Shown piece after piece: positions 294 through 26,125 of a stretch of DNA of 64,000 nucleotides (its first letter is position 1; the number at the start of each line of letters is the position of its first letter). The stretch is from Tissierellia bacterium (GTDB lineage: Bacteria; Bacillota; Clostridia; Tissierellales; Tepidimicrobiaceae). Both the position numbers and the translations under genes were made by a program. The stretch lies in contig JAAYHX010000023.1 of NCBI GenBank assembly GCA_012735215.1, positions 1-64,000 on the forward strand, read 5' to 3'. The notes below the pieces were generated by a model. That model searched no databases, was not told the origin of the DNA, and saw only the letters and a list, made by a program, of their open reading frames with translations.

Positions 294-1273
294 CATGCTA
301 TGGAGATAAGTTCTTTCATAATCTTCTTTATATTATCCAACTCATATTTATCTTCAACCTTCAGCAAGATGATATTTTCAGGTGTTAAGTAGTCAGATTT
401 ATCCTTTATCTTGTCTTCCAGACCCCAGGATGAAACATCAACAAATGCACATTTTTTAGTTGGAGTAATCAAACCCATATTATGTTCAAAATTGATAAAT
501 AAACTTCTATCCTCCCAACGAATATTAAAAAAGCTTCCAAAATAAGCTATATTATCTGCCTTGGAGGTTTTACATACTATGTTAAACATATCTCCGTCAG
601 AATACATATTTTCAATTTCAACTTCGATTTTATCTTCATTCCTTATAATATGAAGCCTTTTAGCCTCAAGTATAAGATCAAAAATGTTTAACACATCAAT
701 TAAGTAATATAGATCATCATAGTTGTGTTTTAAGATTACATCTAATATGCATTTTTTCTTAGATTTTTGGTATTTGTAGTATAAATCAATACATTCTTTA
801 CCCGAGAAAGGGTCTTCCCTATGAATTCCTAAACTCTTTTCTATAGTCTTCAGTTTATAGTTTTCCAAGTTTAAAAATAAGCTATCTTTTTTGATCTGCT
901 TGTATATATCAAAACTGGATAAGTTGTCCATATTGCTTTTTATACTATATTTACTCATCCTATGGTTAATAAAGGGAATATCGAAGCTTTCGCCATTAAA
1001 GGTGATTAAGGTCTTAAACTTACTTATAGATTCATTGGTATACTTTAGGATCTTTTCCTCTTCCCCTAAGCCTTCAGCAAAGTATTGGGTTATATTCCAG
1101 TGAGAGCTGATGGGGTCAAAAGAAAGAAGGCCTACTAGGTATATATGACTCTTATTTTTATTCAATCCAGTTGTTTCAATATCTAAAAAACAGATGGACT
1201 CCTTATGGAATATTTGGTCAAAATGATAGTACATTTCACTTTTGTCACTTAAAACATAATTATATATGAACAT
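293..1273 (-). CDS. YprB-like DnaQ/RNase H-fold exonuclease
   Basis: A 326-aa predicted exonuclease of the RNase H-like (DEDD) superfamily, resembling YprB. Exo I is FLDIETTGL with Asp31 and Glu33. Exo II is the ITFNGESFDIPF region near residue 93. Exo III is HNYDDLYYLIDVL near residue 183. It is shorter than Bacillus YprB (about 410 aa) and lacks the C-terminal TPR part. No YprA-type helicase is adjacent. In Bacillus the pair takes part in DNA repair; that role here is inference. AAAGGAAG precedes the ATG. The stop lies inside the shared terminator with the tRNA genes. Confidence 0.8.
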   Translation of the reverse strand: MFIYNYVLSDKSEMYYHFDQIFHKESICFLDIETTGLNKNKSHIYLVGLLSFDPISSHWNITQYFAEGLGEEEKILKYTNESISKFKTLITFNGESFDIPFINHRMSKYSIKSNMDNLSSFDIYKQIKKDSLFLNLENYKLKTIEKSLGIHREDPFSGKECIDLYYKYQKSKKKCILDVILKHNYDDLYYLIDVLNIFDLILEAKRLHIIRNEDKIEVEIENMYSDGDMFNIVCKTSKADNIAYFGSFFNIRWEDRSLFINFEHNMGLITPTKKCAFVDVSSWGLEDKIKDKSDYLTPENIILLKVEDKYELDNIKKIMKELISIA

Positions 1274-1376
1274 ACTTCTCTACTTCCTTTGATATGATAT
1301 AATAAGTCTATGCAAAATATGCCTTACTTTATTGTAACACAATACTTTATCAGAATCTATGGAAAGGAGCCTTTTA

Positions 1377-2837
1377 ATGGATGAGAATTACAGCTTAAAC
1401 TTAACAAATATGGCAGATGATGATTTAAAGGAAATCTTCTTAAAGATGAATAGGGAACAACTAGCTACCATAAGGGATATGTCCTATTATTACTTATTTA
1501 GTAATACCTTGGAGCTAATAAATCTAATGGCCAATGGGAAACTCCTAGTTGAATTTAGCTTGAATAAAGATGAAGAGGAAAAAATACTAAAGGCTTGTAA
1601 GGAGATAGTTAAACTATTTGAAGAATACCATGGCAATATATCTAAAGGGGATGGGAACGAGAAAATTGAGAGCTTAACCCATCTAAGGGAAGAACTATAT
1701 GATTTATACATTGCCTTATATGGATATGAAATAGAAATAGCCTACATTAAAGAAATGTATGAGTATGAAATATATAAATGGTCTTGGAATGAGCCCCATG
1801 AAGAATTTATAAGCAGGGACATAGTACATATTGTCCACAGAATAGAAGAGGTCCTTAATAGCAATAAGCTAAACCATTATGCTTTTGTGGACCTAGTATC
1901 TAGTATACTTAGTGTTATTCCTTTTAGATTGAGTAAATACAAATATTTTGATGTCCTAAAGACAACCCTTATAAGAAACTATATCAACCATCCAGTATAT
2001 ATAGTAGTAGATCAAATGGAAAGGTATAAGATGATATTTAACAGCAGGCTTGTAGGCAATTATGGTGTATTATTTGACAGCTACTTTGCTCAAATTCAAA
2101 AGTATAATAGCCTCAGCCTAAAAGATAGGCCTTGGAAAGAACTAGAAGTGGATTTAGGACAGGTAAATCAACTATTTTATGAAATAAGCAAGTTGAGAAT
2201 ACTAATTCAAAACTTAGGGGTAATTACAAATAGGCTTATAGCCCTTTTCCTCTCCTTAGAAAAGATTACTCCTGACACTAGGCTTATGGATTACTTTGAA
2301 AAGTGGATACAGGTTAAAGAAGAGAAGGATGAGGAAAGCTTGAGAACATTCATTGAGGAGTCAGATAAGTACTTGATGGAAAAAGAAAAGGAGTTATTGG
2401 ATAGGGCCAATGATTTTGAAGATATAATTCATGAACTGACAAGCAGGGAAACAGCTATAAATGATCATATAAATAATGATATAAGATATACAAGGAAGAT
2501 CCTAATCTATTACAACGATTTAAATTTCAGCAAATATGAAGCCCTATTCCCCAAATCCTATGAAATCATAGGTGAGGATTATCTAAAGCATTTGATTGAT
2601 AATCTCATACAATACATTGATAGGAGTATCCCTAGTATGGATAGCTTAGAGAGAAAGGTTAGGATGAGAAGGCTGCTGGCATCCATAGAACTACCATTCA
2701 ATAATATTGGTGAGTTCTTATCCTTCGTAGAATATTCCTTAGATAGTAAAATTGTAAACAAGGGAGAATTGGTATTCTCCATAGAAATGATTAGACAAAT
2801 ACTAGATAGCTATGATAATCATGAAGAAAGGCATTAA
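1377..2837 (+). CDS. Hypothetical helical cytoplasmic protein
   Basis: I do not recognise this 486-aa protein. It is charged, rich in Glu, Lys, Leu and Ile, has no signal peptide or membrane segment, and looks almost entirely alpha-helical, with likely coiled coil around residues 330-400. The ATG at 1377 was chosen because AAAGGAG ends 7 nt before it; an in-frame ATG at 1359 has no ribosome site. It is divergent from the exonuclease gene and monocistronic, with its own terminator. It may be a lineage-specific structural or scaffold protein; no function is assigned. Confidence 0.75.
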   Translation: MDENYSLNLTNMADDDLKEIFLKMNREQLATIRDMSYYYLFSNTLELINLMANGKLLVEFSLNKDEEEKILKACKEIVKLFEEYHGNISKGDGNEKIESLTHLREELYDLYIALYGYEIEIAYIKEMYEYEIYKWSWNEPHEEFISRDIVHIVHRIEEVLNSNKLNHYAFVDLVSSILSVIPFRLSKYKYFDVLKTTLIRNYINHPVYIVVDQMERYKMIFNSRLVGNYGVLFDSYFAQIQKYNSLSLKDRPWKELEVDLGQVNQLFYEISKLRILIQNLGVITNRLIALFLSLEKITPDTRLMDYFEKWIQVKEEKDEESLRTFIEESDKYLMEKEKELLDRANDFEDIIHELTSRETAINDHINNDIRYTRKILIYYNDLNFSKYEALFPKSYEIIGEDYLKHLIDNLIQYIDRSIPSMDSLERKVRMRRLLASIELPFNNIGEFLSFVEYSLDSKIVNKGELVFSIEMIRQILDSYDNHEERH

Positions 2838-8388: not shown

Positions 8389-8413
8389 ATGTTACAGCTG
8401 TAACATCTATTTT
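8382..8413. terminator. Perfectly palindromic bidirectional terminator
   Basis: Two 16-nt arms (8382-8397 and 8398-8413) are exact inverted copies with AAAA and TTTT ends. The hairpin overlaps the stop codons of both converging genes. Confidence 0.85.
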
Positions 8414-9389
8414 ATTGAAAATAGGTTCTGATTACATTTAAGTCCTTGGATATGCTGAGAACTAGCATCAATTTTATTCTAGCTTTTTGCCCAGGAAGGG
8501 ATCCTCCTAATATAACTCCTAGATCCTTCAAATGTTTTCCTCCACCTTCATAACCATATGTATCTAAAACCCTTCCTGTAGGACATCTGGACACTAAGAC
8601 TACAGGAATATTATTATCAATTGCCCTTTTAATACCTTCCACCATGGCAGGAGGCACATTCCCTCTACCAAGGGCTTCAATTACTATGCCCTTGTAACCG
8701 CTGTTTATATAGAAATGCAGTATATCAGATTCCATACCAGGTACGCACTTTATTAAACCTACCTTTTCCTCTATTTCATTCGTATCTATATGTTTCCTTT
8801 TCAGTATATCCCTGTAGAATATTACCTCATCATTATCCACTATACCTAAGGGGCCAAATTCTGGAGATTTAAAGGTATCTAAAGACAAGGTGTTAGTCTT
8901 TGTTACTTCACTGGCTGCATTTACTTCGTTATTCATTACAACCAAGACTCCTTTATTACGTGCATTTGGAGAAATAGCTGTGCACACTGCAGCTGATAGA
9001 TTGCTAGAACCATCATATCCTAGTTCAGAGCTGTTTCTCATAGCTCCAACCACTATAATAGGCTTTTCAGATTTTACAGTCAGATCAATCAAATAAGCCG
9101 TTTCTTCTAAGGTATCTGTTCCATGGGTAACTATGACCCCTGTGATATCCTGCCTATTTATTGTTTTTTTGACTAATTTGGCTAATTCCATCATCAACTT
9201 AGGGCCAATATGGGGACTAGGTAAATTTGAAAAATTAATTATTTCAAATTCAGCGAATTTTTCAATGTTTGTTACCATGGCCATTATCTCTTCCGATGTA
9301 AGAGCAGGTATGGCAGCATGTATTCTTGGATCTATCTTCATTGAAATGGTGCCTCCAGTAAATATAATGGCTACTTTGTTACTAGACAT
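8412..9389 (-). CDS. ansA: L-asparaginase, cytoplasmic
   Basis: A 325-aa asparaginase that hydrolyses L-asparagine to aspartate and ammonia. The first nucleophile motif is TGGTISM near residue 11. The second catalytic block, THGTDTLEETAY near residue 89, holds the Thr-Asp pair, and GAMR near residue 115 and the later DGSSNL also fit. It lacks a signal peptide, so it is cytosolic. In sequence the THGTD block is closer to the type II form than to E. coli type I. AAAAGGAGG precedes the ATG. It is monocistronic. Confidence 0.92.
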   Translation of the reverse strand: MSSNKVAIIFTGGTISMKIDPRIHAAIPALTSEEIMAMVTNIEKFAEFEIINFSNLPSPHIGPKLMMELAKLVKKTINRQDITGVIVTHGTDTLEETAYLIDLTVKSEKPIIVVGAMRNSSELGYDGSSNLSAAVCTAISPNARNKGVLVVMNNEVNAASEVTKTNTLSLDTFKSPEFGPLGIVDNDEVIFYRDILKRKHIDTNEIEEKVGLIKCVPGMESDILHFYINSGYKGIVIEALGRGNVPPAMVEGIKRAIDNNIPVVLVSRCPTGRVLDTYGYEGGGKHLKDLGVILGGSLPGQKARIKLMLVLSISKDLNVIRTYFQ

Positions 9390-9447: not shown

Positions 9448-9565
9448 CAAAAAGAAAAAAGGCCCCTCAAAAGGAGCCTTTCACCTATTAAAAGGTGAAT
9501 ATTAACCGTTCAAAAGGGGTATTGGGAATAGAGATCTTATTTGAGGTTACCAGGGGGATAACCAC
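9448..9565 (-). ncRNA. Candidate small RNA with C-rich, anti-Shine-Dalgarno-like segments
   Basis: A strong minus-strand promoter is followed by about 118 nt without a reading frame, ending in an intrinsic terminator. Three hairpins can be drawn: a 5-6 bp stem with a CCCCC loop near 9543-9565, a 7-bp stem at 9480-9499, and the terminator stem (10 bp, 9458-9467 with 9472-9481) before TTTTTTCTTTTT. The RNA contains CCCCUUUUGAA and CUCCUUUUGA, both complementary to AAAAGGRG ribosome sites. No known RNA family was recognised. 6S and SRP RNA do not fit in size or motif. Confidence 0.6.
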
Positions 9566-9571
9566 TTATAA

Positions 9572-9600
9572 AGTATAGCAAATTACGACAAACTTTGCAA
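9572..9600 (-). promoter_or_regulatory. Sigma-A promoter for the candidate small RNA
   Basis: On minus, TTGCAA (9595-9600) and TATACT (9572-9577) are 17 bp apart, placing the start near 9565. No protein gene on minus follows before the terminator at 9458-9481. Confidence 0.65.
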
Positions 9601-9701: not shown

Positions 9702-10307
9702 ATGGATAATAAAATATTATTAGCAAAAAATAGTTTAAAGGAAAATGGCTTTCAAGTTGAAGTCTTTCCTAGTGCTAAGGAAGCAAAGGAAGCTTTATTA
9801 AAAGAAATTGGTATAGAAGAGTCAGTTGCCTTTGGAGGCTCTGTAACCCTAGAGGAGTTAAATATCTATGAGGAGTTGAAAGATAGAGGAAATGAAGTAT
9901 ATTGGCATTGGAAGGTAGAAGACAAGGATAGTGAAAGAACAAAAGCAGCTATTACTGATGTTTACCTAACTAGTACCAATGCAGTAACAATGGATGGTAA
10001 GTTAGTCAACATGGATGGGGTTGGCAATAGGGTAGCTTCTATGATCTTTGGTCATAAAAGGGTATATGTAATTGTCGGAAAGAATAAAATATGCAAGGAT
10101 TATGACGAAGCTACAAGGAGAATAAAACATGTGGCTGCCCCCAAAAATACAAAAAGGCTCAATACCAACACCCCTTGTAAGTTTACTGGAACTTGTAACG
10201 ATTGCGATTCTCCAGAAAGGATTTGCAATGTTGAGGTTATAATTCATAAGAATCCAATGGGATCAGACATTAACATATTTATTGTTGACGAAGAATTGGG
10301 ATTCTAG
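9702..10307 (+). CDS. LUD-domain protein (LutC/YkgG family)
   Basis: A 201-aa LUD (DUF162) protein related to LutC, a subunit of lactate-utilisation complexes, although no lutA or lutB is nearby. Visible features are VAFGGSVTLEEL near residue 42, a central STNAVTMDG, the NMDGVGNRVA segment and a C-terminal PCKFTGTCNDCDSPERIC cysteine cluster that could bind metal. The ATG at 9702 follows GGGGGG; a TTG at 9687 would put the ribosome site inside the frame. The function of stand-alone LUD proteins in clostridia is unknown. Confidence 0.8.
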   Translation: MDNKILLAKNSLKENGFQVEVFPSAKEAKEALLKEIGIEESVAFGGSVTLEELNIYEELKDRGNEVYWHWKVEDKDSERTKAAITDVYLTSTNAVTMDGKLVNMDGVGNRVASMIFGHKRVYVIVGKNKICKDYDEATRRIKHVAAPKNTKRLNTNTPCKFTGTCNDCDSPERICNVEVIIHKNPMGSDINIFIVDEELGF

Positions 10308-25935: not shown

Positions 25936-25944
25936 AAGTCTAAC

Positions 25945-26125
25945 TAAATATAGTTGCTGCAGGTACTGTTTAACACAGTTTAAAAGGGAAGCAGGTGAAA
26001 ATCCTGCACGGTCCCGCCGCTGTGATGGGGAGACATTTCATAGGATCCACTGGACAGATTCCGGGAAGGAATGGAATGTCTATGAACCAGAGTCAGAAGA
26101 CCTGCCTGTATGCACTGCACCATAA
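25945..26125 (+). ncRNA. Cobalamin riboswitch
   Basis: The conserved core is present: AAAAGGGAAGCAGGTGAAA near 25982, TCCTGCACGG, CCGCCGCTGTGATGGGG near 26013-26030, CCACTGG near 26047, GGGAAGG near 26063 and the B12-box end AGTCAGAAGACCTGCC near 26090-26105, which closes the outer stem with GCAGGT near 25959. It lies upstream of anaerobic ribonucleotide reductase with a terminator between, so cobalamin binding should switch nrdDG off. Confidence 0.93.

Follow-up and report, generated by a model that had tools for sequence, protein, structure and literature searches.

The window analyzed here, a 64,000-nt stretch of DNA, carries between ansA and a divergent LUD-domain gene a free-standing gene for a predicted small RNA (sRNA) that is conserved apart from its neighbors, both within and beyond its own order, and whose promoter holds TGTCG, the core of a Spo0A-like half-site (0A box), in fixed phase with the −10 hexamer (Table 1). 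The conserved C-rich elements of the sRNA are the C5 loop of hairpin 1 and the block UUCCCAAUACCCCUUUUGAA. Taking the evidence together, we lean slightly toward reading it as a trans-acting, Spo0A-controlled, C-rich RNA that would mask Shine-Dalgarno (SD) sites, with spo0A and a gene for a MerR-type regulator as its putative targets.

Table 1. Features of the sRNA locus (window coordinates)
Feature	Position	Strand	Basis or remark
−35 hexamer TTGCAA	9595..9600	minus	Promoter scan; also present in relatives
Spo0A-like half-site (0A box) TGTCGTA	9584..9590	minus	TGTCG 13 nt 5′ of the −10
−10 TATACT with upstream TG (extended −10)	9572..9579	minus	Promoter scan
Predicted small RNA, ~118 nt	9450..9567	minus	Ends inferred from promoter and terminator; R1 match 9504-9565
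Hairpin 1, GGUUAUC-CCCCU-GGUAACC, C-rich loop	9545..9563	minus	Proposed to pair with the ribosome site of spo0A
Nearly invariant block CUCUAUUCCCAAUACCCCUUUUGAACGG (anti-SD), mostly open	9506..9533	minus	Alignment, folds
Hairpin 2, sequence variable	9481..9498	minus	Folds of the RNA and its relatives
Intrinsic terminator stem-loop	9457..9482	minus	5′ arm is CUCCUUUUGA, the second motif of the preliminary description
ansA (asparaginase), downstream neighbor	8412..9389	minus	
LUD-domain gene, divergent neighbor	9702..10307	plus	

The sRNA gene and its predicted fold

The promoter is of the σA type (TTGCAA-17-TATACT with TG before the −10; 9600-9572, minus strand), and the only terminator-like site between 8700 and 10300 lies at 9482-9457 on the minus strand; both are where a preliminary description of this DNA had placed a 17-bp-spaced promoter and an intrinsic terminator. 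By themselves, the scans yield about what chance would (10 promoter-like sites versus 6.3 expected; 1 terminator-like site versus 0.9); it is conservation in relatives that lifts the sRNA gene proposed for this site far above chance and confirms it. The predicted fold is more stable than those of shuffled sequences (z = −2.7; 1/200). As the same description held, the RNA contains no reading frame: the ansA-LUD gap has no minus-strand open reading frame (ORF) of at least 40 amino acids, and members differ by 1-nt indels in their linkers, which excludes a conserved frame and rules out a coding RNA. The CCCCC loop that it noted near the 5′ end is the loop of hairpin 1 and is nearly invariant among members; neither the Spo0A-like half-site in the promoter nor the spo0A leader as a candidate target featured in it.

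When the window's RNA is folded to minimum energy, the block is partly paired with the hairpin-2 region, whereas it is open in the centroid. Its mean unpaired probability is 0.56 to 0.80 across 25 members (24 block bases), and in the alignment fold a few of its bases are paired; in the folding models, then, the block is mostly open, not fully free.

Conservation and distribution

A BLAST search with 158 bases found the element in 45 of the 61 genomes of the window's order, its own included (the weakest hits span 19 to 65 bases), with matches reaching other families of that order. Many spore-forming anaerobes carry the sRNA. By pattern, it is present in 51 of 80 named asparaginase loci, and the named carriers include Tissierella, Schnuerera, [Clostridium] ultunense, Anaerosalibacter, Alkaliphilus, Natronincola, Geosporobacter, Thermotalea, and Tepidibacter. 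Searches of a distant family, its order, and the class used a model of 62 positions (R1), which matched 58 of 80 genomes in the distant family (f20) and 124 of 198 in its order, f20 included. The sRNA is rare in a class-wide draw, where R1 reached E ≤ 0.01 in 18 of 291 genomes. Nine of these scored more than 40 bits; among the remainder, two (G222 and G322, 27 to 29 bits), whose loci hold the hairpin, TGTCG, and a terminator, were accepted by eye, and the other 7 were treated as chance. One carrier genus (g319) is probably Clostridioides. Genera of another family in the f20 order, f75, have two or three copies of the sRNA: at four f75 loci (L423, L424, L425, and L426), two copies lie in tandem about 180 to 250 bp apart, and the same genomes hold elsewhere a third copy that has diverged and whose promoter contains TGTCG.

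In an alignment of 38 distinct members, 21 columns are invariant and 18 nearly so, and these columns lie chiefly in the 5′ hairpin, C5 loop included, and in UAUUCCCAAUACCCCUUUU. Thus the mostly open block CUAUUCCCAAUACCCCUUUUGAA is nearly invariant, while hairpin 2, the terminator, and the neighboring genes change among members. Hairpin 1 shows no two-sided change within its seven pairs among members. Terminator stems vary (by eye, GGCTCC/GGAGCC, AGCCCC/GGGGCT, GACTCC/GGAGTC, and others), and a last helix of at least seven pairs is kept in 25 of 25 tails despite the sequence change (because a T-run was used to cut the tails, it does not count as a finding). Because terminator stems differ in sequence among relatives, CUCCUUUUGA is a changeable terminator arm, and the second of the two anti-SD segments proposed in the preliminary description is only this arm.

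No Rfam 15 model matched the sRNA locus above its gathering threshold; at E ≤ 10 there were 23 matches, all far below threshold, and the model of the ylbH leader region, which we take to be RF00516, was not among them. In a literature search whose reach left out most subscription papers, we recognized no description of this family. The family is widespread, order spanning, unnamed so far, and not in Rfam 15, and could be added to RNA libraries as a new conserved one. Elsewhere in the window, the Rfam search found a cobalamin riboswitch (25944-26123, 121 bits).

Matches to the sRNA core within ecfA2 (L143 at G000:C18:3725-3765, L111, and L113), where the stretch encoding NPNTPFE is nearly the same in sequence as the block, are probably coding coincidences and were set aside. 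At L116:993-1048 (minus strand; G038:C21), a perfect 19-nt complement of the block accompanies a complement of the C-rich loop, in the leader of a Cas9-like gene (ORF 1093-2019, plus strand; Pfam Cas9_a and Cas9_REC just below their cutoffs); this may be either an antisense target or an inverted duplicate of the sRNA gene that has degenerated.

A phased TGTCG in the promoter and its relation to Spo0A

TGTCG is present in 59 of the 60 best-scoring promoters (30 loci from BLAST, L001-L030, and 30 from R1, L389-L418), always starting 13 nt before the −10, whereas shuffles lead one to expect 0.9; in a wider promoter set, 42 of 90 rows have it. Promoters without TGTCG include those of L060, L069, L071, and L090, from metagenome-assembled genomes of a Tissierella sp., a Clostridiales bacterium, Gudongella, and Soehngenia. 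The 0A box is TGTCGAA, of which Spo0A contacts G2, C4, and G5, according to the accessible part of the source (PMC3485338). The window has TGTCGTA rather than the full box.

Spo0A was searched for in 80 carriers; a C-terminal domain was called full at E ≤ 1e-41, and seven weaker matches were called weak. (Eleven genomes of the wider promoter set lay outside this search, and the counts leave out loci L176, L180, L184, L185, L192, and L193.) TGTCG stands in the spacer in 40 of 58 carriers with full Spo0A versus 2 of 22 whose Spo0A domain is weak or missing (P = 2e-6), in genomes that share ancestry. Of the two exceptions, G002 is 86% complete, and G127, from f65, is 100% complete. Outside f20, the counts are 39 of 42 carriers with full Spo0A versus 2 of 4 others (P = 0.05). 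Within f20, TGTCG or CGACA occurs within 80 nt in 9 of 16 carriers with full Spo0A versus 0 of 18 others (P = 2e-4), with the half-site in the spacer itself in only 4 of the 16; all 9 f20 half-sites fall in loci with spoVS, which they may serve instead of the sRNA. Genomes of family f19 have Spo0A and lack the spacer half-site. This split by family and by spoVS neighbor weakens the link: the association between TGTCG and Spo0A is partly supported, being confounded by family, with the contrast largely one of f20 against the rest.

On this evidence, the sRNA promoter is probably under Spo0A control. Because the 0A-like half-site lies between the −35 and the −10, repression is more likely than activation, and its position suggests that Spo0A represses the sRNA; Spo0A is reported to repress via 0A boxes at the Clostridioides difficile sin locus, as far as the available text of that report goes (PMC7643835).

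Another factor, or RNA polymerase itself, might instead read TGTCG, with the sRNA still acting in trans and spo0A not among its targets, an account that we regard as possible though not probable. A spacing of exactly 13 nt from the −10 could stem from how the promoter works as such; positions 6 and 7 of the 0A box are not conserved among the sRNA promoters; in G127 (L129) the Spo0A search gave no match, yet TGTCGAA stands at the usual promoter place; and G5-ATA sites are generic. Against it, TGTCG goes with Spo0A overall, and its bases are the ones that Spo0A contacts in the accessible part of the source cited above.

spo0A as a candidate target of the hairpin loop

The sRNA loop complements CAGGGGGAUAA. 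We compared spo0A leaders from 40 of the 58 carriers with full Spo0A and from 30 of 37 noncarriers that have Spo0A; 6 of the 70 were dropped because no start was found (G055; G197, G094, G093, G110, and G076). GGGGG is present in 33 of 39 carrier leaders versus 10 of 25 noncarrier leaders (P = 3e-4), and CAGGGGG in 16 of 39 versus 0 of 25. Three of the 25 noncarriers (G013, G028, and G044) come from the same order as the window, and each has GGGGG in its spo0A leader. With wobbles counted, loop and leader could form as many as 15 uninterrupted pairs in G031 and G045, and in the two f58 carriers whose sRNA loop has diverged the spo0A leader also lacks GGGGG. Ranked by hairpin pairing, spo0A is 1st of 306 leaders in G045 and 10th of 321 in the window's own genome; for spo0A leaders of the window's family (f1), the hairpin score against flank shuffles is modest (14/200). 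G5 sites are common anyway, occurring in 28 of 321 leaders of the own genome and 40 of 306 in G045 (these leader sets, also used for the rankings, were built with a crude ORF caller). Feedback on spo0A by the sRNA is plausible from these patterns.

A MerR-type regulator as a candidate target of the open block

For the block, the second best of 321 leaders in the own genome is that of a MerR-type regulator (C14:279655-280257). Within f1, 17 MerR leaders are predicted to pair with the block at −16 to −27 kcal/mol, and this pairing is better than that with shuffled flanks (2/200; 3′ flank alone, 0/200), although leaders of related genera are not independent. Pooling 18 MerR leaders of other carriers gave no pairing signal. 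In G033, the predicted pairing involves a different stretch of the block (12 nt, GGGAATAGAGAT). The seed TCAAAAGGGG before ATG has 83 matches in 44 of 61 genomes, slightly more than the 56 of the reversed pattern, and two of the matches are at the MerR gene (G010 and G059).

Other candidates fared less well. In 300 kb of the own genome, 4 leaders have at least 10 loop-complementary bases versus 0.16 expected; in a 61-genome control, however, the ratio of AGGGGGATA to AGGGGGTAA SD sequences was alike with the sRNA (630/411) and without it (155/96), so this excess is no longer an argument, and a regulon defined by the loop was rejected. Pairing with the yqfD leader scored −29.9 in the own genome, was inconsistent in relatives, and reached 11/200 against flank shuffles; yqfD was likewise dropped. 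The LUD and ansA leaders showed no clear pairing signal with the sRNA.

Overall, spo0A (through the loop) and, in the window's family, the MerR-type regulator (through the open block) are probable targets by prediction, and SD masking is the likely mechanism. For a trans-acting anti-SD RNA, as originally proposed, conservation independent of neighbors speaks most clearly, and the target-pairing tests support it more weakly; its second anti-SD segment drops out. We consider it unlikely that the RNA is instead a sponge or part of a ribonucleoprotein, with the near-invariant block as a protein site and not an anti-SD element: the block hardly varies across orders, which would seem to be more constraint than most target-pairing sRNAs need, but f1 MerR leaders match it beyond flank-shuffled controls, and C-rich anti-SD sRNAs such as RsaE/RoxS are likewise strongly conserved, according to the accessible portion of the source (PMC4409812).

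Neighboring genes

In the 30 BLAST loci L001-L030, an AnsA motif is present in 24 and a NifS motif in 27, whereas 34 f20 loci have neither (0 and 0) and 15 of them have a SpoVS motif. In these 15 f20 loci, L145, L151, and L157 among them, the sRNA gene has a spoVS-like gene close by. A cis-acting leader or attenuator whose terminator read-through controls asparaginase is therefore very unlikely and was rejected: although ansA follows the sRNA here and in most of L001-L030, with the terminator between them, the same RNA occurs in f20 without an ansA neighbor, a separate promoter-like stretch (by eye) lies between the terminator and ansA, and the ansA leaders lack a pairing signal.

A possible circuit around sporulation entry

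In the trans-acting, Spo0A-controlled reading that we favor, the stand-alone gene would be transcribed from its σA promoter, and Spo0A would bind the TGTCG half-site, more likely repressing the sRNA than activating it. The hairpin loop and the mostly open block, both C-rich, would pair with SD regions and block translation; the loop would mask the ribosome site of spo0A mRNA, giving a mutual-repression switch around sporulation entry, and in the window's family the block would pair with the leader of the MerR-type regulator. We propose only tentatively the full double-negative switch, in which the sRNA would mask the spo0A ribosome site during growth and Spo0A~P would shut off the sRNA, making commitment bistable, and in which most carriers without Spo0A would have lost the promoter half-site. 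The onset of sporulation outside Bacillus is poorly understood. A near-invariant sRNA core in Tissierella and its relatives, Alkaliphilus, Tepidibacter, and probably Clostridioides offers a handle on it, and the Spo0A-like half-site at fixed spacing adds to the value of the sRNA for such studies.

Comparison with known sRNAs

CsfG, from the ylbG-ylbH intergenic region of Bacillus subtilis, is linked to sporulation and has conserved CU-rich loops (PMC3574147), which resembles the putative sporulation link and conserved C-rich loop found here; it is controlled by σF/σG (PMC9147052), so far as the accessible parts of both papers tell. The forespore σF/σG promoter of CsfG differs from the σA-type TTGCAA-17-TATACT of the window's sRNA.

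RsaE/RoxS has C-rich regions that pair with SD sites, is highly conserved in its group, and is controlled by a response regulator, as described in the available sections of PMC4409812. C-rich regions, here putatively anti-SD, and the strong conservation recur in the present sRNA family; RsaE/RoxS belongs to other taxa, is under ResD control as opposed to the 0A-type site here, and its covariance model (RF01820) scored 15 bits on the sRNA (E = 3.6) versus a gathering threshold of 79, below what membership takes.

The probable Clostridioides homologue (L419, g319), which sits between nifS and an amino-acid ABC transporter, can be set beside sRNAs of C. difficile. Among growth-phase sRNAs there, only RCd6 responded to a spo0A mutation, falling about 2-fold, in the accessible part of the study (PMC3649979); it maps between CD0469 and CD0470 (a PTS gene and blaR), which does not match the place of L419.

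SpoY (nc020) binds a G-rich motif like the spo0A ribosome site and represses spo0A, its overexpression lowers sporulation, and 8 of 9 additional spo0A chimeras had a similar read profile, all according to the accessible portion of PMC10267692. The same portion gives SpoY as 5′UTR derived, with a start shared with CDIF630_00827 and protection at nt 30 to 41, whereas L419 has its C-runs elsewhere, if started at the predicted site, and no same-strand gene was seen just downstream of it. Compared by description, SpoY is still the closest functional analogue: the spo0A ribosome site that it is reported to target is also the predicted target of the window's sRNA.
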